This document shows, piece by piece, positions 16,123 to 64,000 of a stretch of 64,000 nucleotides of DNA; the stretch's first letter is position 1; each line of letters opens with the position of its first letter. Origin of the DNA: Micromonospora carbonacea (GTDB lineage: Bacteria > Actinomycetota > Actinomycetes > Mycobacteriales > Micromonosporaceae). Location: the NCBI RefSeq assembly GCF_014205165.1, contig NZ_JACHMZ010000001.1, positions 2,254,501 to 2,318,500 of the forward strand. Reading direction: 5' to 3'. A program made the position numbers and the translations under genes. The notes beneath the pieces are model-generated. The model was not told where the DNA came from. It saw only the letters and a list, made by a program, of their open reading frames with translations, and did no database searches.

Positions 16123-16154
16123 GGGTCTGCTGCACCGATAGGTGACAGTTTCAG

Positions 16155-17678: not shown

Positions 17679-17696
17679 CCCCGCAGGAGAACTCAC

Positions 17697-19665: not shown

Positions 19666-19756
19666 ATGAAGATGGTGTTCTCGGGGTTGTCCCCGCTGGT
19701 GATCGATGACGCCACGGACGAGGGCGAGCGGATTCTGGTGCGGGCTCGGACCCCTG
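19666..19756 (+). pseudogene. ISL3-family transposase, first ~30 codons only
   Basis: ATG 19666 begins MVFSGLSPLVIDDATDEGE after two residues, then RILVRARTPE, the standard N-terminus of ISL3 transposases. The frame is cut at 19757 by the IS5-type element, and no continuation was recognised on the far side at 20697, so the rest has been deleted. Confidence 0.65.
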
Positions 19757-42673: not shown

Positions 42674-42802
42674 ACCAGTTTTCCCCTCGCCAGGCTTGCC
42701 GCAGTTACCATTCACAACGTCGTGGCTGGTCAACAGCGCATCACGATACGCCGCCGTAATCTGGGCGACAAGATCGTCGGTATTCGCATCGGGAGGCGAG
42801 CC

Positions 42803-43468
42803 ATGGACGTTGCGGTGGCCGACGACGGCGCGCTGTTCCGGGAGGGGCTGCAACTGCTGCTGTCCGCAGCCGGGCACCGGGTCGTCGGCGGCGTGGAGGA
42901 CGGCGACCGACTGCTCGATCTGCTGGCCCACACTCCCGTGGACGTGGCCATCATGGACATCCGGATGCCACCAGGCGCCGACGGCGGACTACAGACCGCC
43001 CAGCGGGTGCGGGCGGAGCATCCGGACGTCGGGCTGCTGCTGCTGTCCCAGCACGCCGAGGCGCACTACCTGTTCCGGCTGCTGGAGATCGGCACCGACC
43101 GGATCGGATACCGGCTCAAGGACCAGGTGGCCGGGGTGGCCGTGCTCGCCGACACGCTGGTACGCATCGCCGCCGGCGAGCTCGTGATCGAGCCGGCGCT
43201 GGCCGCCAACCTGGTGGACCGGCCGAGCCCTCCGGTGCGCAGCGTGCTGGCCGATCTCACCGAGCAGGAACGCACCGTGCTGCGACTCATGGCGGAAGGG
43301 CGGTCGAATTCCGGCATCGCGATAGAGTTGTTCCTGTCGGTCAAGACGGTCGAGAAGCGGATCGCGAGCATATTCACCAAGCTGGACCTGCCGGCCGAGT
43401 CGGCCGCGCACCACCGGCGGGTCCTGGCGGTGCTCGCGTACCTGCGCTCGAGCCAGATGGCGGACTAG
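42803..43468 (+). CDS. LuxR/NarL-family response regulator
   Basis: A 221-residue protein from ATG 42803. The receiver has acidic Asp7/Asp8, the phosphoacceptor Asp52 (AIMDIRMPP) and a Lys in YRLKDQ. LTEQERTVLRLMAEGRSNSG with IAIELFLSVKTVEKRI is the LuxR helix-turn-helix. It starts divergently from the Hsp70-like gene. A partner could be the sensor kinase at 45.9 kb; the gene directly after it encodes a kinase-like protein without a phosphorylatable His. Confidence 0.92.
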   Translation: MDVAVADDGALFREGLQLLLSAAGHRVVGGVEDGDRLLDLLAHTPVDVAIMDIRMPPGADGGLQTAQRVRAEHPDVGLLLLSQHAEAHYLFRLLEIGTDRIGYRLKDQVAGVAVLADTLVRIAAGELVIEPALAANLVDRPSPPVRSVLADLTEQERTVLRLMAEGRSNSGIAIELFLSVKTVEKRIASIFTKLDLPAESAAHHRRVLAVLAYLRSSQMAD

Positions 43469-43472
43469 CGCG

Positions 43473-45833
43473 GTGCCCCGGGACACGGGCGGCGAGCCGG
43501 CGCACCCGTCCCGCCCGGCGGGGCCGTTCAGCGTCCTGGCCCGGCTGGCGTCCTCGGGTGCGCTGCCCGCGCCGGCGGGGCCGCAGGACCCACTGGGTGG
43601 GTACCGGCCGATCCTGCGCACGCTGCTGCGCGAGGTTGCCCGGGCCCACGCGGTGCGCTACGCGGCGCTGTGGCTGCCGGCGGAAACGCCACCGGGCACC
43701 GGCGCTCCGTCATGGACGTCCGCGATCACGTGGCGTTCCCGGGGCTGGGTGACGGACGCGTTGCCGGACCTGGTGGCCGACCCGGACCTGCTGCTGGGCT
43801 GCTCCGGTGTGGTCGCGGCCGCGGACGTGACCGACGGCGGCGCCCGGCGCGGGGTGGTGGTGCTGGCGCACCCGGAGAATCCCCGGCGCCCGCTGGCCGT
43901 GACGGCGCTGCTGGGCGAGATGGCGGTCTGCGTCGGCCTGCTGCTGCGCCAGGCGGGCCACCGCGCGTCCTGCGCCGCCGCACGGGCCCGGGCCGATGCG
44001 GCGGCACGACGGGTCGGCGCGACCCAGGCGGAGTTGCTGACGGTGCAGGCGGTGGAGCGCGACCGGCTCGCCACCGCGGTCACCGCGACGCCCGGCCGGC
44101 AACTGCGGGCGATCCTGGACCGCACCGCGGACCTGGAACGGGCGCTGCGCGCCGGCTCACCGCAGGCCACGGTGATCACAGGCGGCATTCGGGCCGGGCT
44201 GGGCGAGATGATCGAGCAGTTCCGCGCCGTCGTCCGTGGGGTGTACCCGCAGGTGCTGCGGGGCGCCGGTGTGCGCGCGGCGCTGGAGGAGGTCACCGCC
44301 GCGCTGCCGGTGCCAGTGGTGCTCCGCGGCGAACTGGGCCGGCGTCAGGGCTGGGAGGTCGAGTCCGGGCTGTTCCAGGCCGGCGTGTCCGCGGCGGCGG
44401 CGCTGGGCGCCAGCGGTGGCGAGCAGCCGGTGCACCTGGAACTGGGCCGGTCCGACGGCGTGCTGACGATCCGCGCGCAGCGGGCCGGCGCCGACCCGGC
44501 CCGGGTCGGCGCGGCGCTGCGGGACGACTCCCGGCGGCTGGCCGCGCTGGGCGGTCGGCTGCGGGTGGACCGGGCCGGTCGGGGAGCGGCGACCGTGGTG
44601 GACATCCTGCTGCCGGAGCGGCTCGGCGGCGACCGGCCGGTGCCCGCGCAGACCGCCGGGCCGGAGCCGGCCGGGCCGGGGCCGGGCGAGGCCACCGCCG
44701 GCGCACCCGAGCTACCGACAGGTGTCACCGCGCGCCGGCTGCTGACCCTGCTCGTGACCAGCCGGGAGGCACCTGCGGACAGCCCGTCGATACGGCTCGC
44801 GGTCGACCGGCAGGACGGCCGGAGCCGGGTGGCGGTGGTCGGGGTGTCCGCACCCGAGCTGGTGTCGGTGCTGTGCGGGTCGGGCGGTGCCGCCCGCTGG
44901 GATCCACCGGTCGGGGCGGCCCCGCCGACCGGCTACCAGTACCAGCCGTACCCGCGGGTCACGTTGGACCCGGCTCCCGGGGCGGCGCCGTGGCGGCCGG
45001 TCCGGCTGCCCGACCGGTCCGGCACCGCCTGGCCGGGAACACCGGCCGGGGTGGACCGGGTCCTCGTCGAGCGACCCGTGGACGCGCTGCGCGGGATGCG
45101 GCTGCTGCACCACCGCGACCGGGTCGACGCCGACCTCGCGGCCCGGCTGCGCCGCTGGTCGGGCACCGTCGACGGGCCCCCCGACGCGGTCGTGCTGGTG
45201 CTGTCCGGGCCGGCCAGCACGGCGGAGTCGGAGTTTCTGACCGTCCTGCGGTCGCCGGGCGGAGACGGGTTCTGCCCGGTGGTGATCTGCGCGCCGCGCG
45301 CGGGCACCGCCGCGACGGCCGGATCACAGCAGCAGCTGGGGTCGATGTGCGACGCGGTCGTGGACTGGCGTGCGGCCCCGGGCGGCGGTGCCGCGGTCGA
45401 GGCGGCGCTGCGCGCCCGGGTGCGCGCCTGGGCGGGGGTGACGGCCGCCCGGTGGGCGCTGCGCGCACTGGCGGCCTGCCTGGCCGCGAGGCAGTTGGAC
45501 GACAGGTTCGCCCGGGCGGTGGAGGCGGCCGTCGCGGGCGCGTACGAGGTGGCCGAGCTGGACCTGTTGCAGGCGTTGCAGGGCCGGCGGATCCGGCTGC
45601 CGCGCGGGCACGACGACGCGCTGCGCCTGCTCGGCGCGCACGGTCCCGAGGCACGGTCCCGGCTCGGCCTGGCCGGCGACGCCGACTCGGACCAGGTGGC
45701 CCGGGCCGCGAGCCGGGCGCTGCTGTTCTGGCGTACCCAGTCCATGACGCCGGACGCGGGACCGGCCGGGCGTGGTGCGTGCGCGCTGCTGGTCCGGACG
45801 TGCGAGCGCCTGCTCACCGGCGGCGCCGACTGA
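43473..45833 (+). CDS. Fusion of degenerate histidine-kinase-like and GTPase-like halves
   Basis: A 786-residue protein from GTG 43473, 4 bp after the response regulator. Residues ~50-390 resemble a NarX-type sensor kinase: a GAF-like part, then VERDRLATAVTATPGRQLRA where active kinases have ERDLHDG..Q, so the His is missing; the ATPase region is also eroded. Residues ~430-786 have the layout of IniA/dynamin-like GTPases (RVAVVGVSAPELVSVLCG, then PDAVVLVLSGPASTAESEF), but the P-loop GxxxxGKS is absent. Both halves look catalytically dead. Context with Hsp70 suggests a scaffold or sensor at the membrane. Confidence 0.7.
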   Translation: MPRDTGGEPAHPSRPAGPFSVLARLASSGALPAPAGPQDPLGGYRPILRTLLREVARAHAVRYAALWLPAETPPGTGAPSWTSAITWRSRGWVTDALPDLVADPDLLLGCSGVVAAADVTDGGARRGVVVLAHPENPRRPLAVTALLGEMAVCVGLLLRQAGHRASCAAARARADAAARRVGATQAELLTVQAVERDRLATAVTATPGRQLRAILDRTADLERALRAGSPQATVITGGIRAGLGEMIEQFRAVVRGVYPQVLRGAGVRAALEEVTAALPVPVVLRGELGRRQGWEVESGLFQAGVSAAAALGASGGEQPVHLELGRSDGVLTIRAQRAGADPARVGAALRDDSRRLAALGGRLRVDRAGRGAATVVDILLPERLGGDRPVPAQTAGPEPAGPGPGEATAGAPELPTGVTARRLLTLLVTSREAPADSPSIRLAVDRQDGRSRVAVVGVSAPELVSVLCGSGGAARWDPPVGAAPPTGYQYQPYPRVTLDPAPGAAPWRPVRLPDRSGTAWPGTPAGVDRVLVERPVDALRGMRLLHHRDRVDADLAARLRRWSGTVDGPPDAVVLVLSGPASTAESEFLTVLRSPGGDGFCPVVICAPRAGTAATAGSQQQLGSMCDAVVDWRAAPGGGAAVEAALRARVRAWAGVTAARWALRALAACLAARQLDDRFARAVEAAVAGAYEVAELDLLQALQGRRIRLPRGHDDALRLLGAHGPEARSRLGLAGDADSDQVARAASRALLFWRTQSMTPDAGPAGRGACALLVRTCERLLTGGAD

Positions 45834-45884
45834 CCGGCGCGAGGCACGCACGGGCGGGTGGCCCGGCGGTGCCGGCGGGGTGGC

Positions 45885-46976
45885 TCAGCTCGCCACGAAC
45901 CCGCTGACCAGCGTGCCGGCGGTCGGGCTGGACCGCACCGTCAGCGTGCCGTCGACCGTGGCCAGCCGGGCGGCGAGCTGACGCAGCGGCATCCGCCCGC
46001 CGGTGTCGAAGCCCGGCCCGGTGTCGGCCACCCTGAAGCTCAGGCCCCGGCAGGTGACGCGTAGCGACAGCGTGACCGCGGCGCCCGGGGCGTGCTTGTG
46101 CGCGTTGCTGACCGCCTCCAGGCAGGTCAGGTAGACGGCGGTCTCCACCTCGGGCGGGTACCGGCGGCCGGCCAGTTGCGCGTCGACGTTCAGGGTGACC
46201 GTGTCGAGAGCGCCCAGCCGGGCGGTCAACGCGGTCACCAGGCCGTGGTCGGCCAACGGCGCCAGCAGGCCGGTCGCGGTGGTGTGCAGCACCTCCTCGG
46301 TGCTGGCCAGCAACTCCCGCAGCCGGTCGAGGTGCCGGCCCGCCTCCGCGGCGTCGCCGGCGTCCAGCTGATGTTCCACCATGGCCAGCGACATCTGCAA
46401 CGCGACCATGTGGTGCTGGGCGCCGTCGTGCAGGTCGCGCTCCAGCTGGTGCCGCTGGTGCTCCATCTCGCCGGCGGCCCGCTGCCGGGCGTCGGCCAGC
46501 AGCAGGTCGCTCTGGCCGATCAGCCTCTCGGCGTCGGCGGCGATCAGCTGGGCCTGGATGTCGCTGACCAGCAGGCGGGTCACCGCGTACAGCTCGGGCC
46601 ATCGGAGCAGCCGCTCGGCCGCCGCCGGCGGCTCGACCACGAGGTCGGCCAGGACCTGCTCGCCGTCGCACAGCCGGACCGGCGTCGCCCGGCTCACGGG
46701 CACCGCCTCGACGCCGGTGGCGGCCCACCGGTGCTCCTGCACGGTGTGCCCGGCCGTCGCGTCCGCGTCGTGGCCCGCCGGCCGGGGCAGCCACAGCCCG
46801 ATGGTGACCCTGGCGGCCTCCAGGCACCCACCCAGCGCCCGGGCCAGGGCCTCGGCCTGCGCTCCCGGCAGCGGCCGCCCCGGCAGGCTGTGCACCGCGT
46901 CGACCACCCGCGCCACCTGGTCCGACGGGCCCGGCGTCGGGGGCGGTCCGTCGGTTCGCTGCGTCGAGCGGCGCAT
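45885..46976 (-). CDS. Sensor histidine kinase, HisKA_3 type
   Basis: A 363-residue protein from ATG 46976. HQLERDLHDGAQHHMVALQM carries the phosphoacceptor His183; EAVSNAHKHAPGAAV is the N-box and VADTGPGFDTGG the G1 box. An N-terminal GAF-like region without membrane helices suggests a cytoplasmic sensor. It pairs in type with the NarL-type regulator at 42.8 kb. It is in tandem with the downstream-facing ECF sigma gene. Confidence 0.9.
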   Translation of the reverse strand: MRRSTQRTDGPPPTPGPSDQVARVVDAVHSLPGRPLPGAQAEALARALGGCLEAARVTIGLWLPRPAGHDADATAGHTVQEHRWAATGVEAVPVSRATPVRLCDGEQVLADLVVEPPAAAERLLRWPELYAVTRLLVSDIQAQLIAADAERLIGQSDLLLADARQRAAGEMEHQRHQLERDLHDGAQHHMVALQMSLAMVEHQLDAGDAAEAGRHLDRLRELLASTEEVLHTTATGLLAPLADHGLVTALTARLGALDTVTLNVDAQLAGRRYPPEVETAVYLTCLEAVSNAHKHAPGAAVTLSLRVTCRGLSFRVADTGPGFDTGGRMPLRQLAARLATVDGTLTVRSSPTAGTLVSGFVAS

Positions 46977-47062
46977 GCCGCTACTGTAGGCGGCTCCGGC
47001 CGGGCCGGCCCGACCGGAGCCGTGGGCCGCGACGGGCCCCCGCCACGGTCGCCTCCAACGGC

Positions 47063-47611
47063 TCACGCGGCGCAGAGCAGGTGGTTGGTCGTCGCCTTGC
47101 GGGCCGCCCGCAGCGCGTAGTGCACCCGGCTCTTGACCGTGCCGACCGGCACCCCGAGCGTCTCGCTGATCTCGGCGGCGGTCCGGTCGTTCAGGTATGT
47201 CTCCACCAGCGCGGCCCGGTGCTCCGGCCACAGCCTGTGCAGCACCTGCTCGACCAGCAGGGAGTCCACCACGCCGGCCATCGGGTCCGCCGTGGCCACC
47301 TCGGCGGCGTTCTCGATGTCCACCTCGGTCGGCCGGGCCTTCCTCATGCGGTACCCGTCCATCACCAGGTTGTGCACCACCCGGCGCAGCCAGCCCAGCA
47401 CCGATCCGTGGTCGCCGGTGAGCCGGTCCAGGTGCTTCCATGCCCGCAGGAACGCCTCCTGCACCGCGTCCTCGGCGCGTCCGGTGTCGCCGTCGGTCAG
47501 CCGCTGCGCGTACCGCAGCAGCGGTTGCTGGTAGGTGTCCATCAGCTCACGCAGGCGGGAGTCGCTCTCCGGCGCGCTGCGGTGTCGGTTGCGCTGCACT
47601 CGTTCGGCCAT
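47063..47611 (-). CDS. ECF RNA polymerase sigma factor (SigE-like)
   Basis: A 182-residue sigma factor. YAQRLTDGDTGRAEDAVQEAFLRAW is region 2, LGWLRRVVHNLVMDGYRMRKARP follows, and ETYLNDRTAAEISETLGVPVGTVKSRVHYALRAAR is region 4. No anti-sigma gene follows; the sensor kinase gene is 86 bp downstream on the same strand. It is divergent from the glycosyltransferase gene and may control the secretion locus. Confidence 0.92.
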   Translation of the reverse strand: MAERVQRNRHRSAPESDSRLRELMDTYQQPLLRYAQRLTDGDTGRAEDAVQEAFLRAWKHLDRLTGDHGSVLGWLRRVVHNLVMDGYRMRKARPTEVDIENAAEVATADPMAGVVDSLLVEQVLHRLWPEHRAALVETYLNDRTAAEISETLGVPVGTVKSRVHYALRAARKATTNHLLCAA

Positions 47612-47903
47612 GCCCTGACACTGCCGGCGTGGGCCGGTCGCCCGACATGGTGCGGCCCCGCGGGTTGGGGAGGGTTATCCCTACGCCCGGCGCTGGCACC
47701 CGCGCCGCCGCCACCCCGCCGTTGGTCCGTGCGGCGACCGGTGAACCCGGCGGTGCCCCGATCCCGTGCCCCATGTGGACGACCTCGCGGCCCGGTGGCG
47801 GAGGGCAGGCGACGACGTCGTCCGGCACTGCCGCGACGGCCGGGACCGAGGCCGGGCGGCGGCCCGAGTGGTGGCGCCGTGGCGCCCGACCGAAGAGGTG
47901 GGT

Positions 47904-49319
47904 ATGCAGGAGACGGACTTTCCGGCGGTGGGCATCGGGATCACGACGCACAACCGGGGCGTCGTGTTCCGCACCGCGTTGGAGGCGATCCGCAAGCACG
48001 CGCCCAGCGGGGCCGCGATCGTCGTGGTCGACGACGCCAGCGACGAGCCGGTGGAGGAGGCGACGTTCCGCTTCGACCGCAACGTCGGCATCGCGCGCGC
48101 CAAGAACAAGTGCCTGGAACTGCTGGTCGAGCGGGGCTGCACGCACCTGTTCCTGTTCGACGACGACTGCTGGCCGGTCGCGGACGGCTGGGAACGGCCC
48201 TACGTCGACAGCCCCGAGCCGCATCTGATGTACATGTTCACCGACACCGCGCGGGGCCGGCTGACCGACGCGACGGAGATCTACCGGGACGAGCGGCACC
48301 GGGCGTACACCCATCCCCGCGGCTGCATGCTCTACTTCGAGCGGCGGGTGCTGGACCGGGTGGGCGGATACGACACCCGGTTCGGCCGGTGGGGATACGA
48401 GCACGTGGACCTGTCCCACCGGATCTACAACGCCGGCCTGACCTCGTTCCGGTTCGCCGACGTGGTCGGCAGCGGAGACCTCATCTTCAGTTGCGACGAG
48501 CGCACCCACGTCGGCTCCAGCGTGTCCGACATCGAGCGCTTCCACCTGGTGCGTAACCTCAGGACCCGGTCGGAGGCGAGCTGCACCTCGTCGGAGTACC
48601 GCGAGTTCCGCACCGTTCCCGTTGCCGCGGCGACGGCGCAGAACGTGGTGCTGACCACGTACCTCACCGTGCAGCCCGACCCGCAGCGCGGCGTCACCTG
48701 GACACCGGACTACGCCGACCTGGCCGAGTTGCGCCGCTCCGTCGAGCGGCACGGGCGGCGGCTGGTGGTGCTGCACGACTGCCTCGACGAGCCGGACACC
48801 GACCTGGTCACGCACGTCCGGGTGACGCCGGGCGGGGACCTCAGCTCGCCGTACTTCCACCGCTGGCTGTGCTGGTGGCGGTACCTGCGCGAGCACCCCG
48901 AGATCGACCAGGTGTGGTGCGTCGACGGTACCGACGTGGAGATGCTGCGCGATCCGTTCCCGGAGATGGACGACCGGCTGTACGTGGGCGACGAGCCTGC
49001 GCCGCTGTGCATCCCGTGGATGGTGTACCACCACGGGGGCAGCGCCACGCTGTTGCAGTTCCTGTCCGACAACCGGGCCGCCCCGCTGCTCAACTGCGGG
49101 CTCACGGGCGGCCGGCGGGACACGGTGCTGGAGTTCTGCCGGGACGTGTTCGACTTCTGCGTCACCAACGCGAGGGAGGCCGGCCCGCTCGACATGGGGC
49201 CGTTCAACTACGTGGCCCGCACCTGGTACGCGGGAATGATCGTGCACGGCCGCCAGGTCAGCACGGAGTTCCGTAAGGACGACCGGACCAGCACCGAGTC
49301 GTGGTGGCGGCACAAGTAG
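47904..49319 (+). CDS. Two-domain glycosyltransferase (GT2-like N-terminus)
   Basis: A 471-residue protein; ATG 47904 was chosen for its GAAGAGGTGGG site, although the frame is open 138 bases upstream. Residues 1-~215 are GT-A: GIGITTHNRGVVFRTALEAI, VVVDDASDEP, NVGIARAKNKCLELL, FLFDDDCWPV (metal-binding Asp), and GGYDTRFGRWGYEHVDLSHR. Residues ~235-471 look like a second nucleotide-sugar-type domain (VVLTTYLTVQPDPQRG ... VWCVDGTDVEMLRDPF, another DxD-like DGTD). It lacks membrane segments. It stands at the head of the secretion locus. Confidence 0.85.
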   Translation: MQETDFPAVGIGITTHNRGVVFRTALEAIRKHAPSGAAIVVVDDASDEPVEEATFRFDRNVGIARAKNKCLELLVERGCTHLFLFDDDCWPVADGWERPYVDSPEPHLMYMFTDTARGRLTDATEIYRDERHRAYTHPRGCMLYFERRVLDRVGGYDTRFGRWGYEHVDLSHRIYNAGLTSFRFADVVGSGDLIFSCDERTHVGSSVSDIERFHLVRNLRTRSEASCTSSEYREFRTVPVAAATAQNVVLTTYLTVQPDPQRGVTWTPDYADLAELRRSVERHGRRLVVLHDCLDEPDTDLVTHVRVTPGGDLSSPYFHRWLCWWRYLREHPEIDQVWCVDGTDVEMLRDPFPEMDDRLYVGDEPAPLCIPWMVYHHGGSATLLQFLSDNRAAPLLNCGLTGGRRDTVLEFCRDVFDFCVTNAREAGPLDMGPFNYVARTWYAGMIVHGRQVSTEFRKDDRTSTESWWRHK

Positions 49320-49404
49320 GCGAACGCGGGCCGCGACACACGTGAACTCCGCAGGCCGCTCCCGCCGTGCCAGAGATGAACCCTGCACCGGGTGAAGGAG
49401 GGCG

Positions 49405-50676
49405 GTGACCGTGGACGTGGACACGGACCTGGATGTGGCGGCGGAAACGACCCGGGCCGCCGATCGTGACGAGAGCATGCACGCGTTGCTGCTGCGGTTG
49501 GCCGGCTCGCTGCCGGACCGGGTGCTGACCGACGCGAAGGACGCGCTGGCCGCCGGCCGGCGGCTGGACGTCGTACAGGCGCTCGCCTTCGAGGCGGTGT
49601 CCCAGCCGCTGCAACTGGACGCCGACGAGATCTCGGCGATGCGCGAGGAACTGGCCCTCGGCGGCGGGGACCTCGACCTCGGCCTGGCGCTGGAGGAACT
49701 GCGCGGGGACCGCCCGCAGGCACCCTGGCAGTTCCTGTCCGACCTGCCGACCACGCAGGAGGAGCTGGCGTCGATGGTGCTCCCGCAGGACCGCAGCGCC
49801 GATCCGGTCGACGTCCTCGACCCGGTCGACCAGGCGCTGGTGGCCGCGGCGTCGGCGATCCCGGCGGTTCGCGCCGTGTGGCGGGCGTGGCGGATGCCGC
49901 ACACCGCACGTCCCTGGCAGGACCCGGTGCGGGTGGCCGTGGTCAGCGTCGACGACACGACGGGCGGACTCCCCGCGCTCGGCGTACGCCTGCGCCGCAG
50001 CATGGTCGAGGCCGGAGACGCCGAGGCGCAGGTCGAGGTCTGCTGGCGGGGGGCCGGGGGAGCGCCGTTCTACCAGACGCTGGCCCGCTCGTCCGGCTCG
50101 CTGCTGTGGGCGGCGCGGCCGGCCGTGCCGGTGGCCACCGCCCGGCTCTTCGACGGCGTCGATCCGGTGCGCGGCCCGTGGTTCGCCAGCAACCGGCCGG
50201 TGGTCTCCGATCCCGCGCGACGCGACGAGCTGCTCGCCGCGCTGCGCGGCGGGGTGGTCGTCGCGTGGAGCAGCGCCGCCATGGCCGACATCCTGTCCCC
50301 GGACCGTGGCGACGTGGTGCCGATGCACCTGCGCACCGACGGGACCTGGCTGTGGAGCGAGGCGGTCGGGTACTACCTGGAGAACTACGGCCTGGCCCCG
50401 GATCCGGAGCTGGTCACGCACCTGACCGGGGCCGAGCGTGCCGAGCCCCTGGACGAGATCTCCGTGCACCGTGCCCTGGTGCACCTGTGCCGGCCCGACG
50501 CCGAGGCGGTCCTCTGGCCGGCGTCCGGTGCCGACGCCGACCCGGCGTCGCCGGCCGAACCCTCCTCGCCCGACGTCCCGTCGTCCGACGGCGTGCCGCC
50601 GGCCCACCCGGAGCTGCCGGGCGTGCCGCCCGAGGCACGGCACGACCACGCGACGCCGCGGCCGGTGTCGCCGTGA
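49405..50676 (+). CDS. Uncharacterised protein of the type VII-like locus
   Basis: A 423-residue protein from GTG 49405. The N-terminal 80 residues are helical (LLLRLAGSLPDRVLTDAKDA). The middle is alpha/beta. Residues ~300-345 carry VPMHLRTDGTWLWSEAVGYY, followed by LENYGLAPDPELVTHL, a motif that recurs in actinomycete secretion and contact-system proteins. The last 60 residues are Pro/Ala-rich. Its stop overlaps the next start as GTGA. The function is unknown. Confidence 0.75.
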   Translation: MTVDVDTDLDVAAETTRAADRDESMHALLLRLAGSLPDRVLTDAKDALAAGRRLDVVQALAFEAVSQPLQLDADEISAMREELALGGGDLDLGLALEELRGDRPQAPWQFLSDLPTTQEELASMVLPQDRSADPVDVLDPVDQALVAAASAIPAVRAVWRAWRMPHTARPWQDPVRVAVVSVDDTTGGLPALGVRLRRSMVEAGDAEAQVEVCWRGAGGAPFYQTLARSSGSLLWAARPAVPVATARLFDGVDPVRGPWFASNRPVVSDPARRDELLAALRGGVVVAWSSAAMADILSPDRGDVVPMHLRTDGTWLWSEAVGYYLENYGLAPDPELVTHLTGAERAEPLDEISVHRALVHLCRPDAEAVLWPASGADADPASPAEPSSPDVPSSDGVPPAHPELPGVPPEARHDHATPRPVSP

Positions 50677-56047: not shown

Positions 56048-56082
56048 CCCCTGTCCTGGATACGGAAGAAAGGTGCTTGAGA

Positions 56083-56589
56083 ATGCCGGCAGTGAGTATG
56101 CGGGGTGCCTGGCGGATCAGGGTGGTGAGCAAGGAGTCCCTCTTCGCGCAGCGGATCGTGTTCTCCGGTGACGTGCAGAAGATGCTCAACCTGGACGTCG
56201 GGACCTCGGCGTCAGCGAGTGGGAGGCGGTGGGCGCTCCGGTTCGAGCACGACCGCGGTGACGGCGTCTGGCGGCCGAACGTCTCGGTGGAGGCGGGCGC
56301 CATCGTCCGGCACGGCAACGAGCTCCAGCGGCTGATAGCGACGAAGGACGTGTTCTGGAGCGGTGACCGTGAACACGACGACCTGAAGGTGCTGCTGACC
56401 CGCCCCGCGCCCGCGGGTTCCCCGGAGGAGGCGGCGGGCGGCTCGCCCTTCGCCGTCGACGTCGACCTGCCCGAGCTGCCGCCATCGCCGATGCTCCCAT
56501 CGGTGGACGGTCTCGAGGCGCCGCAGGAGCGGCAGCGTTCGTACGGTGGCCAGGGGGCGGGGGTTCCCCTGCGGAGAGGGCCGTGGTGA
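56083..56589 (+). CDS. Small hypothetical protein of the type VII-like locus
   Basis: A 168-residue protein from ATG 56083 with GAAAGG upstream, 35 bp after the AAA gene. The first ~110 residues look like a compact beta-rich domain (AWRIRVVSKESLFAQRIVFS, RWALRFEHDRGDGVWRPNVS); the tail is Pro/Glu-rich and disordered. No family was recognised, and it is not a WXG100 protein. It may be an operon-specific accessory protein. Confidence 0.7.
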   Translation: MPAVSMRGAWRIRVVSKESLFAQRIVFSGDVQKMLNLDVGTSASASGRRWALRFEHDRGDGVWRPNVSVEAGAIVRHGNELQRLIATKDVFWSGDREHDDLKVLLTRPAPAGSPEEAAGGSPFAVDVDLPELPPSPMLPSVDGLEAPQERQRSYGGQGAGVPLRRGPW

Positions 56590-56629
56590 TTCTTGAGACG
56601 CCATACGCAGACTCGACGGAGGGACCGCG

Positions 56630-57634
56630 ATGACCCGTACCCCTGAAGGCCCCGTCACCCGGCGCGCCCTGCTGCGCGGCGCGGCCGCCGCCGGCGTCGC
56701 CGCCGCGGGCGGCGCGCTCACCGCCGCGCCCACACCGGCGCTCGCCGCACCCGGCGGGTTCCCCACCTACCAGTACGTCCGCGACGCCTTCGCCGGTCCA
56801 CTGCGCTACAACCCCACCGGCGAGTTCATCTTCCCCTGCGTCCGTGGCGTCTACGACAAACTCGACAGCTACCTCGGCCGCTACTACCTCTACTACGCGC
56901 CCCACGACGCGCCCGGCGGAATCTGCCTCGCCTACGCCGACCGGCTCGAAGGCCCCTACACCGAATACCCCGGCAACCCCATCGTCGACCGAGTTCTCCC
57001 CACCACGACCGTCAGCCACGTGTCGTCACCCCACGTCGTCTGGGACGCGCCCACCCGGCAGTTCTACCTCTATTTCCACGGCGAGAACTTCACCACCCGC
57101 GTGGCCCGCTCCACCGACGGCATCCGGTTCACCGACGAGACGCCCATCCTCTCCACCAGGCTCGTGCCCAACACGACCGAGACCTCCTACGCGCGGGTCT
57201 TCGAGCACTCGGTGGCCGGCAGGAACAACCGCTACGTCATGGTGTTCATGGGCCTGCACACCATCGGGCCCGGCGCTCGCAAGATCTTCTGGGGCTGGTC
57301 GCCCAACGGCTGGAGCGGCTGGCAGTTCGACCCGAACCCGCTGGTCTCACCCTCCGGCGACGGACTCACCGACATCTCCGCGCCGCACCTGCTGAAACGC
57401 AACGGCACGGCGTACCTCGCCTACCACGGCAACAGCGGCAACATGTACCTCACCGAGGTCGGCGTCAACTTCGACCGGGAGGTCCACCTCGGGGTGTTCC
57501 ACCGGCCGATCGCGTCGGACGACGGCCGCGTCGCGGCCCCCGCATTCGGCACCGACGGCGGCGTCCAGTACATGCTCTACGAGGCCGGACCCCGCCTCAA
57601 CGCCAGAATCCGCATCGCCCGCGCAGCCGGGTAG
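56630..57634 (+). CDS. Tat-exported GH43-like five-bladed beta-propeller protein
   Basis: A 334-residue protein with GGAGGGA upstream. VTRRALLRGAAAAGVAAAGG is a twin-arginine signal with a likely cut after TPALA. The mature part has repeated propeller strands (YYLYYAPHDAPGGICLAYAD, SSPHVVWDAPTRQFYLYFHG, ISAPHLLKRNGTAYLAYHG) of the glycosidase GH43/GH32-related superfamily. The canonical catalytic Asp/Glu set could not be placed with certainty. Lying 41 bp after the operon, it could bind or trim the glycan made by the nearby glycosyltransferases. Confidence 0.82.
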   Translation: MTRTPEGPVTRRALLRGAAAAGVAAAGGALTAAPTPALAAPGGFPTYQYVRDAFAGPLRYNPTGEFIFPCVRGVYDKLDSYLGRYYLYYAPHDAPGGICLAYADRLEGPYTEYPGNPIVDRVLPTTTVSHVSSPHVVWDAPTRQFYLYFHGENFTTRVARSTDGIRFTDETPILSTRLVPNTTETSYARVFEHSVAGRNNRYVMVFMGLHTIGPGARKIFWGWSPNGWSGWQFDPNPLVSPSGDGLTDISAPHLLKRNGTAYLAYHGNSGNMYLTEVGVNFDREVHLGVFHRPIASDDGRVAAPAFGTDGGVQYMLYEAGPRLNARIRIARAAG

Positions 57635-57683
57635 CGCCGGCCGGCGCATCGCCGGCGGCTGCGGCTTGTCCGTGCGCCCGGCC

Positions 57684-57768
57684 GCCGCGGGGGGACGCCC
57701 CGCGGCGACCGGGCGTGTGCGCCTGTCCGCCTGCCGGCCGCCGCCGGGGAGGGCGTCGCGCGACGCCC
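57684..57768 (+). terminator. Two GC-rich hairpins between beta-propeller gene and eccC
   Basis: GCCGCGGGG/CCCCGCGGC with a 5-base loop at 57684-57706, and the perfect palindrome GGGCGTCGCGCGACGCCC at 57751-57768. They fill most of the 192-bp gap and probably end transcription from upstream, so eccC would need its own promoter. Confidence 0.5.
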
Positions 57769-57826
57769 CCGGTGCGGAAAGTTGTCGATTCCGGGCACCG
57801 GTCAACTCTTTCCGGCCCGTAGCCGT

Positions 57827-60800
57827 GTGACGGATGTGAGCACCAGACCTTTCCGGCGGCCGGCGCGCCGCAACGGACCCGAACTGCCACACGGCGAGAT
57901 CACCCTGCAGGAGCCGCCGGTCGTTCCGGAGGTGCAGCCTGCGGGATTCCGCTCGCTCGGGATGATCCTGCCGAGCCTGCTGATGACCGGCGGGTTCATG
58001 TTCATGATGATGAGCAACTCGCTCAAGGGCCCGATGGGCATGGTCATGCTGGTCATGATGGGCGGCGGCATGGCGGGCATGGCCGTGTTCCAGATGACGA
58101 TGGCCAACGGCAACCGCAAGCAGCAGATCAACGGCGACCGGCGCGACTACTTCCGCTACCTGTCCCAGACCAGGGCGCGGGTCCGCCAGTACGCCGCGGA
58201 GCAGCAGAGCGCGCTGGCCTGGCGGCACCCCGACCCGGAGTCGCTGTGGTCGCTGGCGATGACCAGCCGGCTGTGGGAGCGCCGGCCGACGCATCCGGAC
58301 TTCGGCGAGATCCGGGTCGGCACCGGCGCCCAGCGGCTCGCGGTGCGGATCACCCCGCTGGACACCAAGCCGGTGGAGGACCTGGAACCGGTGTGCGCGA
58401 AGGCGTTGCGCCGGTTCATCAGGGCCTACACGACGGTGCCCGACCAGCCCGTCGCGCTGTGCCTGCCCGGCTTCGCGCACGTGCGGATCAGCGGCGACCG
58501 GGACGTGGCGCGGGGCATGGTGCGCGCCATGCTCGCCCAGTTGGTCACCTTCCACGCCCCGGACGAGCTGCGGCTGGCGCTGTGCATCGGCGTCGAGCAG
58601 GCCGAGCAGTGGGAGTGGGCCAAGTGGCTGCCGCACGCCAAGCACGCCACCGACGTCGACGTGGCCGGGCCGGTACGGCTGTTCGGCGCCACCCTCGAAG
58701 AGGTGGAGCGGCTGCTGGGCGCGGAGTTCGCGGCCCGCTCCCGGTACGAGGACGACGCCCAGCCCTCCCGCGAGGAACCGTTCGTCGTGGTGGTCTGCGA
58801 CGGCGGCGTCATCCCGGCGGGCGCCCGGCTGACCGTCTCCGGGTACCGCAACGCCGTCCTCGTCGACTTCGACGGCCGTGGCCTCGCCGACGGGGACAAC
58901 GTGCTCAACCTGGAGGTGTCCGCCACCGACGTGGACATGATCGAGAAGGACCACGTGGGCCGGGAGGTGCGCACGCGGCTCGCCGCACCAGACCACCTGG
59001 ACGTGCCCCGGCTGCGGGCGGTGGCCCGGATCATGGCCCGGCACGCCACCAGGGTCACCGGCGAGCAGCCGGCCAGCGGACTCAGCGCCGTCCTCGACCT
59101 GCCCGACCTGCTGGACATCCCCGACCTGGACACCTTCGACCCGCGCGCCCGGTGGGAGGCCCGCACGCCCGCCGACCGGCTGCGGGTGCCCATCGGGGTG
59201 GCCGCCGACGGCTCCCCGATCGAGCTGGACATCAAGGAATCAGCCGAGGGCGGGATGGGGCCGCACGGCATGCTCATCGGCGCCACCGGGTCGGGCAAGA
59301 GCGAGCTGCTGCGCACCCTGGTGCTGGCCCTGGCCGCCACGCACTCCTCGGAGACCCTCAACTTCGTGCTGGTGGACTTCAAGGGCGGCGCCACCTTCGT
59401 CGGGCTGGACCGGCTGCCGCACGTCTCCGCGCTCATCACCAACCTGGCCGACGAGGCCGCGCTGGTCGACCGGATGCAGACCACCCTCCAGGGGGAGCTG
59501 GTGCGCCGGCAGGAGCTGCTCCGCCGGGCCGGCAGCTTCACCTCGGTGCGCGACTACGAGAAGGCCCGCGCCCAGGGCGCCGAGCTCGAACCGCTGCCCA
59601 CCCTGTTCGTGGTGGTGGACGAGTTCAGCGAGCTGATCGCGGCCAACCCCGAGTTCATCCAGCTGTTCGTGATGATCGGTCGGCTCGGCCGCTCGCTCGC
59701 GGTGCACCTGCTGCTGGCCTCGCAGCGCCTGGAGGACGGGCGTATCCACCAGCTCGAAGGGCACCTGTCGTACCGCATCGGGCTGCGCACGTTCTCCGCG
59801 ATGGAGTCGCGGGCGGTCATCGGCGTGCCCGACGCGTACGAGCTGCCGGGTGATCCGGGCAACGGATACCTGCGTTCCAGCGTCACCAGCATCACCCGGT
59901 TCAAGGCCGCGTACGTGTCCGGCCCGCACCGGGTGCGCAGCACCGGACTGCGCCGCGAGGTGATCGCCAGCCAGGTGGTCCCGTTCACCGCCGCGGCCGC
60001 CGCGCCCGCCGTCCCGGCGCCGCTCCCGCCGGCGGAACCGACGCCGCAGGAGCCGGCCGACACCGGCACGACCGTGCTGCACGCGCTGGTGGACCGGCTG
60101 GTCGACCAGGGTCCGCCGGCACACCAGGTGTGGATGGCGCCGCTGGAGGACGCGCCCACCCTGGACGACGTGCTGCCGCCGCTGTTGCCCGACCCCGAGC
60201 ACGGGCTGCGTCCCATCGACGCCGGCCGGCACGGGCACCTGCAGGTGCCGGTCGGCCTCATCGACAAGCCGTTCGAGCAGCTGCGTGACCTGCTCGTGGT
60301 GGACCTGGCCGGGGTCGGCGGGCACGTGGGCGTGGCCGGCGGGCCGCAGAGCGGCAAGAGCACGCTGCTGCGGTCGCTGGTGTGCGGGCTGGCCCTCACC
60401 CACTCGCCGCGGCAGGTGCAGTTCTACTGCCTCGACTTCGGCGGCGGCGCGCTGGCCGGGCTGGCCGGCCTGCCCCACATCGGCGGGGTCGCCGGCCGGC
60501 ACGAGCCGGAGCGGGTGGGCCGCACGGTGGCCGAGGTCCGCTCGATCCTCGTCGAGCGGGAACGGCGCTGCGCGGAGCTGGGCATCCACGGCCGGGACGC
60601 CTACCTGCAGGCGCAGGCCGACGGCCGCATCACCGAGGACCGGTTCGGCGACGTGTTCCTGGTCGTGGACGGGTGGTTCGTGCTGCGCCAGGAGTTCGAG
60701 CCGGCCGAGGAGACGGCCCGGGACATCGCCGCCCGGGGCCTGAACTACGGGGTCCACATGATGATCTCCATGGGCCGCTGGTCGGAGCTGCACATGTCGA

Positions 60801-61810
60801 TGCGGGACAAGGTCGGCACGCGCCTCGAACTGCGCCTGGGCGACCCGGTGGAGTCCGGGATCGACCTGCGTGCGGCGGCCCAGGTGCCCCGCCGGCCGGG
60901 GCACGGGCTGACCGACGCCAAGCTGCACTTCCTCGGCGCGTTGCCGCGCATCGACGGCGTCCAGTCGGCCGAGGGGCTCGCCGCGGCCACCGAGCACCTG
61001 GTGTCCGCGGTGGCGGACAGCTGGCCCGGGGAACGCGCCGCCGCCGTGCGCACCCTGCCGGCCTCGCTGCCGATGGCCGAGCTGCCGGCGCCGCAGGAAG
61101 CCCGCATCGCGCTCGGCGTGGACGAGGACCAGCTCGCGCCGGTGTGGCACGACTTCCGGGCGATGCCGCACCTGACCGTGCTGGGGGACACCGAGAGCGG
61201 GAAGACGAACCTGCTGCGCCTCGTCGCCCACGCGATCGTCACCAGCCACACCCCGGCCCAGGCGCGCATCATGGCCGTCGACTACCGGCGGCAGCTCTTC
61301 GACGACGTGCCGGCCGCCTACCGGCTCGGCTACTCGGTCTCGCCGGACAGCACCCGGGACACCGCCGCCGAGGCGCTCGCCGGCCTCCGGCCGCGGGTTC
61401 CCGGCCCCGACATCACCCCGGAGCAGCTACGTGCCCGCGACTGGTGGACCGGCCCCGCGCTGTACGTCCTGGTCGACGACTACGAGCTGCTCGCCGGGCA
61501 CGACAACCCGCTGGCCAACCTGATCCCGTTGCTGCCCCAGGGCGGCGACATCGGCCTGCACGTGGTCGTCGCGCGGGCCGCGGCCGGAGCGATGCGGCTG
61601 TCGATGGACCCGCTGCTGCGCCGCATCCAGGAACTGAACACTCCGGACGTGGCGCTGTCCTGCCCGCCGACGGAAGGCCCGCTGCTGGGCAACACCAAGC
61701 CCCGTCCGCTGCCCCCGGGCCGGGCGTTGCTGTGCACCCGGCGCGGCAGCCGGCTGATCCAGACGGCGCTGGCACCCGCGCCGGAGGTGTCCACCGAGGC
61801 CGGCCGATGA
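57827..61810 (+). CDS. eccC: Type VII secretion ATPase EccC, single-chain form
   Basis: About 1327 residues from GTG 57827 (GTG 57836 also possible). RRPARRNGPELPHGEITLQEPP is the family's opening, two membrane helices follow (~43-62 and ~66-87). Three FtsK/SpoIIIE domains have Walker A motifs GATGSGKS (~485), GGPQSGKS (~838) and GDTESGKT (~1119). Walker B is intact in domain 1 (LFVVVDEFSEL) and altered in domain 2 (FLVVDGWFVL) and 3 (VLVDDYELL), as is usual for EccC. It powers substrate export across the inner membrane. Its stop overlaps the next start as ATGA. Confidence 0.95.
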   Translation: MTDVSTRPFRRPARRNGPELPHGEITLQEPPVVPEVQPAGFRSLGMILPSLLMTGGFMFMMMSNSLKGPMGMVMLVMMGGGMAGMAVFQMTMANGNRKQQINGDRRDYFRYLSQTRARVRQYAAEQQSALAWRHPDPESLWSLAMTSRLWERRPTHPDFGEIRVGTGAQRLAVRITPLDTKPVEDLEPVCAKALRRFIRAYTTVPDQPVALCLPGFAHVRISGDRDVARGMVRAMLAQLVTFHAPDELRLALCIGVEQAEQWEWAKWLPHAKHATDVDVAGPVRLFGATLEEVERLLGAEFAARSRYEDDAQPSREEPFVVVVCDGGVIPAGARLTVSGYRNAVLVDFDGRGLADGDNVLNLEVSATDVDMIEKDHVGREVRTRLAAPDHLDVPRLRAVARIMARHATRVTGEQPASGLSAVLDLPDLLDIPDLDTFDPRARWEARTPADRLRVPIGVAADGSPIELDIKESAEGGMGPHGMLIGATGSGKSELLRTLVLALAATHSSETLNFVLVDFKGGATFVGLDRLPHVSALITNLADEAALVDRMQTTLQGELVRRQELLRRAGSFTSVRDYEKARAQGAELEPLPTLFVVVDEFSELIAANPEFIQLFVMIGRLGRSLAVHLLLASQRLEDGRIHQLEGHLSYRIGLRTFSAMESRAVIGVPDAYELPGDPGNGYLRSSVTSITRFKAAYVSGPHRVRSTGLRREVIASQVVPFTAAAAAPAVPAPLPPAEPTPQEPADTGTTVLHALVDRLVDQGPPAHQVWMAPLEDAPTLDDVLPPLLPDPEHGLRPIDAGRHGHLQVPVGLIDKPFEQLRDLLVVDLAGVGGHVGVAGGPQSGKSTLLRSLVCGLALTHSPRQVQFYCLDFGGGALAGLAGLPHIGGVAGRHEPERVGRTVAEVRSILVERERRCAELGIHGRDAYLQAQADGRITEDRFGDVFLVVDGWFVLRQEFEPAEETARDIAARGLNYGVHMMISMGRWSELHMSMRDKVGTRLELRLGDPVESGIDLRAAAQVPRRPGHGLTDAKLHFLGALPRIDGVQSAEGLAAATEHLVSAVADSWPGERAAAVRTLPASLPMAELPAPQEARIALGVDEDQLAPVWHDFRAMPHLTVLGDTESGKTNLLRLVAHAIVTSHTPAQARIMAVDYRRQLFDDVPAAYRLGYSVSPDSTRDTAAEALAGLRPRVPGPDITPEQLRARDWWTGPALYVLVDDYELLAGHDNPLANLIPLLPQGGDIGLHVVVARAAAGAMRLSMDPLLRRIQELNTPDVALSCPPTEGPLLGNTKPRPLPPGRALLCTRRGSRLIQTALAPAPEVSTEAGR

Positions 61811-63753
61811 CCCGCACCGCCGCCCGCCCGCCCCGTACGCCCACCCCGTCGGCCCGCACCGCCGAACCGGCGGCGGCCGAGGAACTGGCCCGGCGGCTGC
61901 GGGCCCTGGCCTGCCTGCCCGGACCGTCGGCGACGCCGACCGCCTGGCCCTGCGACACCGGGCTGCTGGACTGGCTGCGCCGGATGACCTACCCCGACCT
62001 CTACACCTGGGCGGCCGAGGAGAACCTGGCGCGCCGCTGGATCGGCGGCGACGTCTTCGGCTCCCGCCTCCTGCCGCGGGCACCGGGGTTCCTCGCCGGC
62101 GTCGACGTGCGCCGGCTCGCCCCGCACCTGGTCGCGCCGCTGTTGCGGCGGGTGAGCATGACCCGTCCGGCCCCGACCGCCGCCGACCTGACGCCCGCGG
62201 CCCTGGCCGCCGACGGGGGCCCGGTCAGCACGTTCCGGCGCGACGGTGCCGCCCGGCTCTGGGGCCAACCGGAGCACGCGCCGCCGCTGCCCGACACCAC
62301 CACCATCCCGCACGTCGTGCACGGCATCTGGCTCGGCCGTCCGCTGCCGGAGTCGAACGGCTTCTGGGTCAACTACGGCGCGGCGGCCGACAGCTACGCC
62401 GGCCAGGTCGACTTCGTGCTGTGGACGGACATCCCACGGTCCCGTTTCGACGCGGCCCGCGCCACCCCGCCCGCCCCGGCCGGCCACCCCGATCCCCTGG
62501 CCCCGACGCGCGCCCTGCTCGCCTGGGCCGGCACCCACGGCATCCACCTGGTGAGCGTGGCCGAGCTGTTCCACGCGAACGCGCCGATGACCCTGCACAC
62601 CCCGTACGCGCTGGAGCTGAACCGCAGGCTGCCGCAGGGCTTCGCGGCGGCCAGCGACCACCTGCGGGTCGAGGTGGTGCACCGGTTCGGCGGCCTGTAC
62701 GCCGACGGTGACCTGCGCTTCCTGCCCGACGCCGCGCCCCCGCCGGCCGAGCGGGCCGACCGCCCGGAGGGGCCGGGTGCCGAAGGTGTGCCGGGCGGCG
62801 GCTACCGGCTGTTCCGCGGCCGGTGGGACGGGCCGCCGGCGGCCGACGGACCGGCCCGGCTGCCGGACCTGTTCGACCGGGTCGCCGCGTCGGCGCACGG
62901 GTTCACGCTGCACGCGCTCACCGACGAGATCGTCCTCAACGACGTCATCCTGGCCCCGGCGGGGCACCCCGCGCTGGCACTGTGGTTGGAGGGCGCGCGG
63001 TACAACTACCTGCGCGACCCGCGCGACCTCTACGCCGCCGACACCCCCGAGCCGGCCGACCCGGACCCGCCCACCTCGGACCCGCGAGCCGGGTCCGGCC
63101 CGCCGGTCGCGGGGGCGTCGGGGTGGCATGGGGAACCGGCCTCCTGGACCTGGGCGGTCACCGCGATGCGCACCGGGCGGGTGCACCACTGGCTGCTGGC
63201 CCGGCTGGGCATCGGCGTGGCCGATCTGGTCAGGCCGGCACCGGCGGTACGCGGGCACAGCGAGCTGAGCTGGCTGCCGCCGGTCGACGGCCAGCCGCCG
63301 GTCGCCTGCCCCGACCCGGACCCGCTGCCGACCCTGGTCGCCTGCGTGGACCTGCTGCGCTGGCAGCACCTGTCGCGCGCGGGGGACCTGTGCCTCACCG
63401 CGGTCGCTCCGCTGGTGCGCGGGCTGCCCGAACCGGACACCGCGTGGACCGCGCTGCTGCTCGCGTTCGGGCACCTCTCCACCGACCTCGGCCCGGTCAC
63501 GTCGGTCACCGACCGGCGACGCAACCAGGACCAGACCCTCGACGTGGTGACCCTGCCGCCCGAGGCCGAGGCGCTGCTGGACCGTTCCGCCACACCGGTG
63601 ACCTGGTTCGGTTCCGTCCGCTCCGGCGACGACCCCGAAGCCGCAGCGGAGGCCGCCGGCCGGGAGCACTGGTTCCTGGGCGAGCGCACGGTCCCGGCCC
63701 GGCTCCTGCCCGCCGCCCCGCACGGACACCCGGGACGGGCAAGAAAGCCGTGA
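61807..63753 (+). CDS. DXD-type glycosyltransferase coupled to eccC
   Basis: A 648-residue protein whose ATG overlaps the EccC stop. The core reads IPHVVHGIWLGRPLPESNGF (start of the sugar-binding region), VDFVLWTDIPRSRFDA, AASDHLRVEVVHRFGGLYADG with the DXD metal site Asp300-Gly-Asp302, then DEIVLNDVI. This is the GT32/TcdA-TcdB-like 'sugar-binding region containing DXD motif' family, which includes bacterial toxins. The N-terminal ~160 residues are helical. There is no signal peptide. It may modify the secretion machinery or its substrates, or itself be exported. Confidence 0.87.
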   Translation: MTRTAARPPRTPTPSARTAEPAAAEELARRLRALACLPGPSATPTAWPCDTGLLDWLRRMTYPDLYTWAAEENLARRWIGGDVFGSRLLPRAPGFLAGVDVRRLAPHLVAPLLRRVSMTRPAPTAADLTPAALAADGGPVSTFRRDGAARLWGQPEHAPPLPDTTTIPHVVHGIWLGRPLPESNGFWVNYGAAADSYAGQVDFVLWTDIPRSRFDAARATPPAPAGHPDPLAPTRALLAWAGTHGIHLVSVAELFHANAPMTLHTPYALELNRRLPQGFAAASDHLRVEVVHRFGGLYADGDLRFLPDAAPPPAERADRPEGPGAEGVPGGGYRLFRGRWDGPPAADGPARLPDLFDRVAASAHGFTLHALTDEIVLNDVILAPAGHPALALWLEGARYNYLRDPRDLYAADTPEPADPDPPTSDPRAGSGPPVAGASGWHGEPASWTWAVTAMRTGRVHHWLLARLGIGVADLVRPAPAVRGHSELSWLPPVDGQPPVACPDPDPLPTLVACVDLLRWQHLSRAGDLCLTAVAPLVRGLPEPDTAWTALLLAFGHLSTDLGPVTSVTDRRRNQDQTLDVVTLPPEAEALLDRSATPVTWFGSVRSGDDPEAAAEAAGREHWFLGERTVPARLLPAAPHGHPGRARKP

Positions 63754-63784
63754 ACTCCCGTGACCGCGCGCACGTGTTCGGAAT

Positions 63785-64000
63785 ATGAGCGCCGAGCGCG
63801 GGGAACTGTGCCGACTGCTGGTGGTCGGGCCGACCAGCCAGGTCGACGTGAGTCTGCCCACCCACATTCCGTTGGCCGACATGATGCCGGCCCTGCTGGG
63901 CGCGCTGGGACCGGACCTCGCCGATCGTGGTCTGGAGCACAGCGGCTGGATCGTGCAACGGCTGGGTGGACCGGTCTTCGACGAGTCCCGCACCGTCGCC
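63785..64000 (+). CDS. eccD: Type VII secretion protein EccD, N-terminal part (runs off window)
   Basis: 72 codons are visible from ATG 63785 to the window end. CRLLVVGPTSQVDVSLPTHI, PLADMMPALLGALGPDLADR then SGWIVQRLGGPVFDESRTVA match the ubiquitin-like (YukD) domain that begins EccD, the eleven-helix membrane channel of type VII systems. Membrane helices would lie beyond the window. Confidence 0.88.
   Translation, partial: MSAERGELCRLLVVGPTSQVDVSLPTHIPLADMMPALLGALGPDLADRGLEHSGWIVQRLGGPVFDESRTVA

Follow-up and report, generated by a model that had tools for sequence, protein, structure and literature searches.

A type VII secretion island of Micromonospora with two glycosyltransferase genes and a giant toxin-like gene

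Introduction

Why would a type VII secretion system (T7SS) carry glycosyltransferase genes within its own locus? The question is raised by a 64,000-nucleotide stretch of Micromonospora carbonacea DNA (contig NZ_JACHMZ010000001.1, forward-strand positions 2,254,501 to 2,318,500; hereafter the window), in which genes for EccC, EccD and an EccA-type ATPase lie together with two glycosyltransferase (GT) genes. An initial annotation of the window saw here a distinct actinomycete secretion or surface-display system. We find that it had recognised a real and conserved unit and had drawn its border too tight: the unit continues beyond the window through the genes for EccB and two WXG100 proteins to a giant toxin-like gene. 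As judged from sequence, the core is that of an ordinary T7SS (EccC, EccD, EccB and WXG100) whose putative cargo, although of a known type, is extraordinary, and what is new appears to be the built-in, probably cytosolic, pair of GTs and the missing mycosin. The system is thus distinct as a variant; for surface display we found nothing in support, the conserved product being the giant toxin-like protein.

A conserved secretion island

The host genome is complete (7.53 Mb), and coordinates are given in window numbering, continued beyond the window end at 64000; genes were called with a codon-position script, and gene starts may be imprecise. The island extends from about 40493 to 107301 (about 65 kb) and is therefore wider than first described. 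From 5' to 3' it contains an HSP70-like gene (minus strand), a response regulator, g33, a histidine kinase (minus strand) and an extracytoplasmic function (ECF) sigma factor (minus strand), followed by a plus-strand block of g36, g37, g38, g39, g40, g41, EccC, g43, EccD, EccB, two WXG100 genes, g48, g49, YbaB, g51 and the giant gene. Neighbouring genes overlap by 4 bases in g37-g38-g39, EccC-g43 and YbaB-g51. The two GT genes, g36 (GT2 type) and g43 (with a DXD motif), are interleaved within this block, as the initial annotation had described.

EccC (57962..61810, +) comprises EccCa and EccCb (TIGR03924 942 bits, TIGR03925 851 bits, both over cut-off), and EccD (63785..65164, +; PF19053 5e-46, YukD 1.6e-18) crosses the window end. 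Beyond it we identified EccB (65187-66497; PF05108 4e-69) and a pair of WXG100 genes (66618-66935 and 67004-67291), which match PF06013 at 4.4e-06 (27.3 bits, at the cut-off) and 2.5e-12. The apparent lack of a WXG100 gene, correct for the window, arose because the window ends just before the EccB and WXG100 genes. Extending it thus supplied EccB, the WXG100 pair and the rest of EccD; mycosin and EccE are not at the locus. For EccE, one place over the TIGR03923 cut-off was found at 6.65 Mb and one weak match at 6.46 Mb, the locus itself lying at 2.3 Mb.

We investigated the distribution of these genes in a family set of 101 genomes and a genus set of 151 genomes, scoring presence and absence in the compared loci by tblastn on DNA. 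EccC had a match in 101/101 family genomes, with an identity of at least 61% in 12 of them and of at most 56% in the next, among the matches listed. All 12 loci of this EccC subclade combine EccC with EccD, EccB, WXG100 and a giant-type gene, the smallest a frame of 1,492 aa in G059, a locus of lower GC than the others, and several of the frames end at the border of the stretch. The EccC of G035 (60-62%, in two pieces), which was kept outside these counts, had no mycosin or giant in the 30 kb examined, a contig end being near. An exclusive link between giants and this EccC clade was rejected, as frames of at least 2,500 aa occur in 3/10 control EccC loci of other clades, chosen mainly from complete genomes and not randomly (3,632, 3,671 and 2,511 aa, the last ending at the stretch border).

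A standalone gene for the DXD enzyme g43 defines nine loci, namely those of G000, G036 and seven further genomes of the genus (hereafter GT-type loci). In all nine, g36, g37, g38, the beta-helix-AAA gene g39, EccC and the DXD enzyme occur together and in the same order, and eight of the nine also have g32 to g35, EccD, EccB, the WXG100 pair, g48, g49, YbaB, g51 and the giant. The ninth, G145, is an 18.9-kb contig that starts in g36, and in which the DXD enzyme and four WXG100-like genes are followed by other genes, not EccD. The nine EccC sequences form one clade (support 100/100), sister to the ten other EccC sequences of the subclade (97/96). The question whether the beta-helix-AAA, DXD and ADP-ribosyltransferase (ART)-like genes always co-occur can thus be answered in part: they stand together with EccC in all nine standalone-DXD loci, while beta-helix-AAA genes are also found in 4/10 sister-clade and 3/10 control loci, and the GT2 gene in 2/101 family genomes at E<=1e-20. 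The comparison that the initial annotation named for refuting the grouping came out largely in its favour, although the members are not a general feature of EccC loci.

One to four extra WXG100-like genes follow the DXD enzyme in four loci (G233, G228, G196 and G145). We additionally noted a TTTTEDD stretch in WXG100 proteins of the GT-type lineage (seven extra-copy sequences compared).

The two glycosyltransferases

The GT2-type enzyme g36 (47904..49319, +) is cysteine-rich and matches Glyco_transf_7C (2.9e-07) and, just under the cut-off, Glycos_transf_2 (7.7e-05). The DXD enzyme g43 (61807..63753, +), of GT-A type, overlaps eccC by 4 bases and lies directly after EccC in 9/9 GT-type loci. 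Its own match to PF12919 (0.0044) is weak and below the cut-off; its relatives match Gly_transf_sug at 1.8e-13, and the active-site motifs IWLG, ASDxLR and GG.Y.DGD are conserved in the aligned standalone set. We identified the DXD enzyme in 6/101 family genomes, standalone and full-length in G000 and G036, and partial in four others, inside frames of 2,699-17,469 codons. In the genus set it was found in 12/151 genomes, eight times standalone (own genome counted) and four times within long frames.

Standalone and embedded copies differ in their cysteines. The GT-domain stretches of 14 proteins of less than 1000 aa hold 52 cysteines in 7,422 aa (one of these proteins, L069, of 522 aa, aligned over 140 residues only), compared with 1 in 3,535 aa in ten giant-type frames; in three Kineosporia triple-GT proteins there are 18 in 4,310 aa of GT-domain stretch. 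Standalone domains thus have an ordinary cysteine content and giant-embedded ones almost none, indicating that the DXD enzyme is probably cytosolic. Within the island, the WXG100 genes, g48, g49 and the giant have 0-1 cysteines per 1000 residues, and the GTs 7.7 and 27.6 (the latter g36). The small g40 and YbaB are also cysteine-free, so that low cysteine is not an exclusive sign of export. No WXG100 or similar export head was found on the DXD enzyme by Pfam or NCBIfam, and from cysteine content and the lack of a recognised head we infer that both GTs remain in the cytosol.

Both GTs appear to be under a constraint similar to that of the machine genes EccC and EccD. The ratio of non-synonymous to synonymous substitution (NG86 dN/dS, two pairs) was 0.35-0.40 for the GTs (g43 0.36 and 0.38), 0.26-0.35 for EccC and EccD and 0.58 for EccB; g33, g37, g38 and g40 had values of 0.50-0.67, higher than those of both GTs.

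Relatives of the DXD enzyme outside the island include, in Kineosporia (L065 and L066), proteins in which three DXD domains are combined within about 1,900 residues; one of those in L066 adjoins relatives of g31, g32, g34 and g33 as well as a fragment of an AAA gene. In Frankia canadensis (L058), about 6 kb separate a DXD relative from a gene for pyruvate:ferredoxin oxidoreductase (POR_N 7.4e-78), and the flanks examined were without a T7SS match.

The missing mycosin

Four places in the genome exceed the TIGR03921 cut-off for mycosin, and in the window and the next 48 kb not even a weak match was found. The same absence from the island was found in 9/9 GT-type loci, with the mycosins of the own genome and of sister loci as queries; mycosin-type matches beyond the giant occur twice in G036 (one of them by another EccC) and once in G110. 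Nine of the ten sister loci have a mycosin within about 7 kb of EccC, mostly adjoining it (7 kb from it in G075), and the tenth, G059, has none in its contig, which extends only 3.9 kb after EccC. Among the control EccC loci, 7/10 have a mycosin. The 4-base overlap of the DXD enzyme with EccC in the study locus has a counterpart in G098, where it is the mycosin that overlaps EccC to the same extent. A strict exchange of mycosin for glycosyltransferase is not general, since both occur in L057 and L059, outside the clade, and neither was found in controls G034, G060 and G004 (40 kb examined). As no mycosin is present at the locus, another copy in the genome may act in trans, or none may be required.

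The giant gene and its Gly-rich neighbour

The giant gene (71953-107301, beyond the window) is an open frame of 11,782 codons, whereas the other frames of that DNA stay open for no more than 1,992 codons, and one frame of 50 base shuffles for no more than 579. Its codon-position GC is coding-like in all 500-codon windows, third-position GC being lowest (0.79-0.82) at residues 1000-4000. The product has four cysteines in all. Residue 9629 lies within a papain-fold toxin domain (PF15644, 6.3e-10), and a papain-like cysteine motif at residue 996 is a motif only, with no Pfam match. HExxH motifs occur at 3961 and 8357 in two copies that are 89% identical over 241 residues, neither with a Pfam or PDB match. 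Residues 1437-3722 form four tandem units of about 400-640 residues, in which Pfam finds nothing, and which by eye we take to be OTU-like with the cysteine lost.

Two blocks of the giant (about 1200-4020 and 8120-11782) are unmatched in the 5,717-aa giant of G036, and the HExxH copies lie at their edges. The giant therefore seems to grow by in-frame blocks, which suggests recombination at shared cassettes. The N-terminus has no Pfam match of its own; hhalign matches it to the head regions of other giants (probability 99.1, E 5e-19, from small sets of 4 and 10 sequences), and as the head of the G098 giant matches PF25547 (WXG100_2), the giant is assigned a WXG100-like N-terminal head by sequence alignment. 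In G233 the giant gene is broken into three frames (1,960, 4,116 and 2,257 aa), by sequencing error or as a decayed copy.

The Gly-rich g49 (67868-70999, beyond the window) precedes the giant. The Gly-rich proteins before giants carry a C-terminal motif, RxTWLxEDExVWGTDPDxAPxVxGR, with variations, in seven sequences including one of Actinokineospora (L070), and this motif may serve as a signal for export or docking.

The beta-helix ATPase and the ART-like protein

EccA proteins typically have a TPR-type N-terminal domain. In g39 (52553..56047, +) its place is taken by a right-handed beta-helix (Beta_helix 9.6e-36), followed by two AAA domains (AAA, AAA_lid_6), as the initial annotation had proposed. 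The protein is over the cut-off for EccA (TIGR03922, 493 bits; cut-off 467), and scores higher with the SpoVK model (520; cut-off 423). All nine relatives scanned by Pfam, seven non-GT-type proteins and those of L057 and L059, likewise have a beta-helix and two AAA domains. This architecture is not a departure from known ESX loci, as an EccA with a beta-helix N-terminus is already mentioned in the available text of PMC10659427. According to the same text, AAA chaperones of the EccA/SpoVK/CbbX clade act narrowly on dedicated targets, SpoVK on a glycosyltransferase. With this clade g39 shares the AAA and lid domains, and the beta-helix known for EccA; it differs in its constant link to two GT genes in the GT-type lineage.

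The gene before it, g38 (50673..52556, +), has 4-base overlaps on both sides, in keeping with the coupling to the ATPase proposed in the initial annotation; its ART-like character comes from a weak structure model (pLDDT 49). With this model, all 13 Foldseek rows at E<=0.001 were XopAI (1.6e-05), an ADP-ribosyltransferase toxin/immunity pair (6.4e-05) and ExoS (2.3e-04), and we take XopAI and ExoS to be ADP-ribosyltransferase types. In 17 sequences Glu 564 is invariant, Ser 499 nearly so, and the first-strand Arg not conserved, the R-S-E assignment having been made by eye.

Proposed function and alternatives

We propose that the island, in Micromonospora and near relatives, is a variant T7SS that would be dedicated to the export of the giant it encodes, a toxin-like protein almost devoid of cysteine, with the WXG100 partners and the Gly-rich protein exported alongside. 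EccC, EccD and EccB would form the membrane machine, by family membership, and the beta-helix ATPase, the HSP70-like protein and the ART-like protein may be cytosolic helpers that prepare or deliver the cargo, to judge from their families, gene overlaps and conservation. The two GTs would most likely add sugar to at least one island-exported protein before or during its handover to EccC. Once exported, the giant would probably act on competing or neighbouring cells via its protease- and deamidase-like domains. We regard the chances of this reading, taken as a whole, as evenly balanced; cargo glycosylation is possible on the sequence evidence.

A more specific version is rather unlikely in our estimation: the DXD enzyme and its GT2 partner may decorate the WXG100 proteins, for which the Thr run before the acidic tail in the GT-type lineage is a candidate site, or the giant prior to export, and the island would then be a T7SS analogue of the glycosylating accessory Sec system. 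Accessory Sec has built-in glycosyltransferases for serine-rich adhesins. Common to both would be cytosolic GTs whose genes accompany those of an export machine devoted to a single, very large protein, whereas the machine and the enzymes are unrelated, and the acceptor in the study locus is putative.

Several observations weigh against modification of the cargo. A standalone DXD enzyme was found in 0/10 sister loci, all of which have giants (G098 has the domain inside its giant), and the enzyme is therefore not needed for giant export generally. DXD relatives also occur in six Frankia contigs, in all of which the island T7SS proteins were unmatched in the flanks examined, and these, with the Kineosporia triple-GT proteins, indicate that the ancestral job of the enzyme may differ. 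The same GT domain family serves as a toxin domain within actinobacterial giants. Finally, the Asn/Ser/Thr content of g49 is not clearly different between loci with and without the GT enzymes.

Alternatively, both GTs might build or trim an envelope glycan, for wall passage of the giant or self-protection, without acting on the cargo, which we consider doubtful but a real contender. The GT2 enzyme bears a weak resemblance to exopolysaccharide, mycofactocin and rhamnosyl-transferase models, the Frankia relatives are consistent with such a role, and one related AAA protein, SpoVK, is an activator of a peptidoglycan glycosyltransferase, according to the available text of PMC10659427. However, Pfam shows no other glycan-biosynthesis gene (sugar nucleotide, flippase or polymerase) in the block, in which g37, g38, g40, g48 and g51 are without a family, and the constant position of the DXD enzyme behind EccC also counts against this reading.

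The DXD enzyme might instead itself be a T7SS-exported toxin, a detached "Tox-Glycosyltransferase" domain modifying targets in other cells. Its domain relatives do lie inside giant frames of several genomes, the table of PMC3482391, as far as available, lists a T7SS (WXG)-linked actinobacterial "Tox-Glycosyltransferase", and the g43 profile is distantly similar to SetA, TcdB-type and related toxins in the region of the DXD motif (E 0.002 to 0.6). We rejected g43 as a plain member of the TcdA/TcdB family, given the PF12919 score and a profile that, against PDB sequences, covers the DXD stretch only. Export as a toxin is unlikely, as the standalone copies have the cysteines that embedded ones lack, no export head is recognised, the overlap with eccC is as for a cytosolic partner, and the next gene is EccD, not an immunity gene. 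That regulators, GTs and T7SS genes are mere neighbours is very improbable: although some members occur alone elsewhere, accidental grouping is largely refuted by the same order in 8/8 further loci with a standalone Micromonospora-type DXD enzyme, an agreement tempered by their common descent.

If, as we propose, the GTs act on the cargo, this would be the first T7SS known to us with a glycosylation step of its own, in a genetically tractable soil genus. Otherwise, it is in any case a well-defined conserved unit, in which a single T7SS is linked with a single giant toxin-like product (of up to 11,782 residues) and with candidate helpers. The island makes testable how so long a chain crosses the membrane, and what is recognised by beta-helix EccA-type chaperones.

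Comparison with known systems

In the available text of PMC4791881, the ESX-4-type T7SS of actinobacteria comprises EccC, EccD, EccB, MycP and two WXG proteins. EccC, EccD, EccB and the WXG100 pair are common to both systems; the study locus lacks the mycosin, and adds the beta-helix EccA-type ATPase, two GTs, the ART-like protein and the giant. T7SS clusters are also described in Micromonospora lupini, one with EccE and mycosins (PMC4182475, from the accessible part).

Giant multi-toxins are known from actinobacteria, such as SACTE_5178 of 13,652 aa (PMC3482391), and the table of that paper, in its available part, ties several giant-type toxin domain families to T7SS (WXG), papain-like toxins being covered. 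Both these proteins and the present giant extend over thousands of residues with several toxin-type domains; the domain set is different, and here a whole export locus with a regulatory and GT block is conserved around the giant. With the Tox-Glycosyltransferase (PF04488) of T7SS toxins in the same table, g43 shares GT-A active-site motifs and a domain family found also inside giants, whereas g43 stands on its own downstream of eccC, and its cysteine content is normal.

The giant multi-toxins, the glycosyltransferases among T7SS toxins and the beta-helix EccA thus have published precedents. For a T7SS locus equipped with glycosyltransferases of its own, no description was found by title and abstract, in a search that mostly left out the subscription literature.

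Other genes of the island

Of the remaining genes in the plus-strand block, g37 (49405..50676, +) has a confident AF2 model (pLDDT 82), no Pfam or NCBIfam match and no Foldseek match at E<=0.001; its profile relatives elsewhere are neighbours of giants or of T7SS genes, and it is regarded as a T7SS-linked protein. The small g40 (56122..56589, +) is present in 7/9 GT-type loci, with orthologues of 71-76% in six of seven further loci and no tblastn match in G110 and G036. A Tat-exported propeller had been thought to belong to the system. The gene, g41 (56630..57634, +), is indeed Tat-type by eye and weakly GH43-like in Pfam, but was found in 0/8 other GT-type loci by tblastn, and was rejected as a part of the system, being strain-specific (1/9 loci). 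Beyond the window lie g48 (67494-67865), YbaB (71068-71490) and g51 (71487-71828).

The regulatory end of the island begins at the block edge with g31 (40493..42601, -), an HSP70-like ATPase domain protein with a C-terminal extension (Pfam HSP70 2.4e-38). It is present in 6/9 GT-type loci, with orthologues in the same position in G036, G233, G243, G110 and G168 by tblastn, was unmatched by tblastn in the short sequence examined upstream of g32 in G228 and G196, and has a relative in Kineosporia L066. The LuxR-type response regulator g32 (42803..43468, +; Pfam Response_reg, GerE) is found in 7/8 other loci, the eighth, G145, ending at a contig border. The sensor histidine kinase g34 (45885..46916, -; HisKA_3, HATPase_c) and the ECF-type sigma factor g35 (47063..47599, -; Sigma70_r2/r4) complete this group together with g33 (43473..45833, +), which had been described as an inert kinase-GTPase hybrid. 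The inert half of this description holds: g33 is a pseudo-histidine-kinase-like protein with Thr in 8/8 orthologues at what we presume to be the acceptor-His position of the H-box, and a G....GK[ST] P-loop was found in none of the 8. The GTPase half is putative. There are no Pfam or NCBIfam matches to g33; its segments individually resemble sensor kinases and other proteins, and its C-terminal part has no family assignment. The protein is a conserved pseudo-kinase.

Elsewhere in the window, a stretch of lower GC (0.64-0.66) at 14000-22000 contains open reading frames that, by eye, look like putative transposases.

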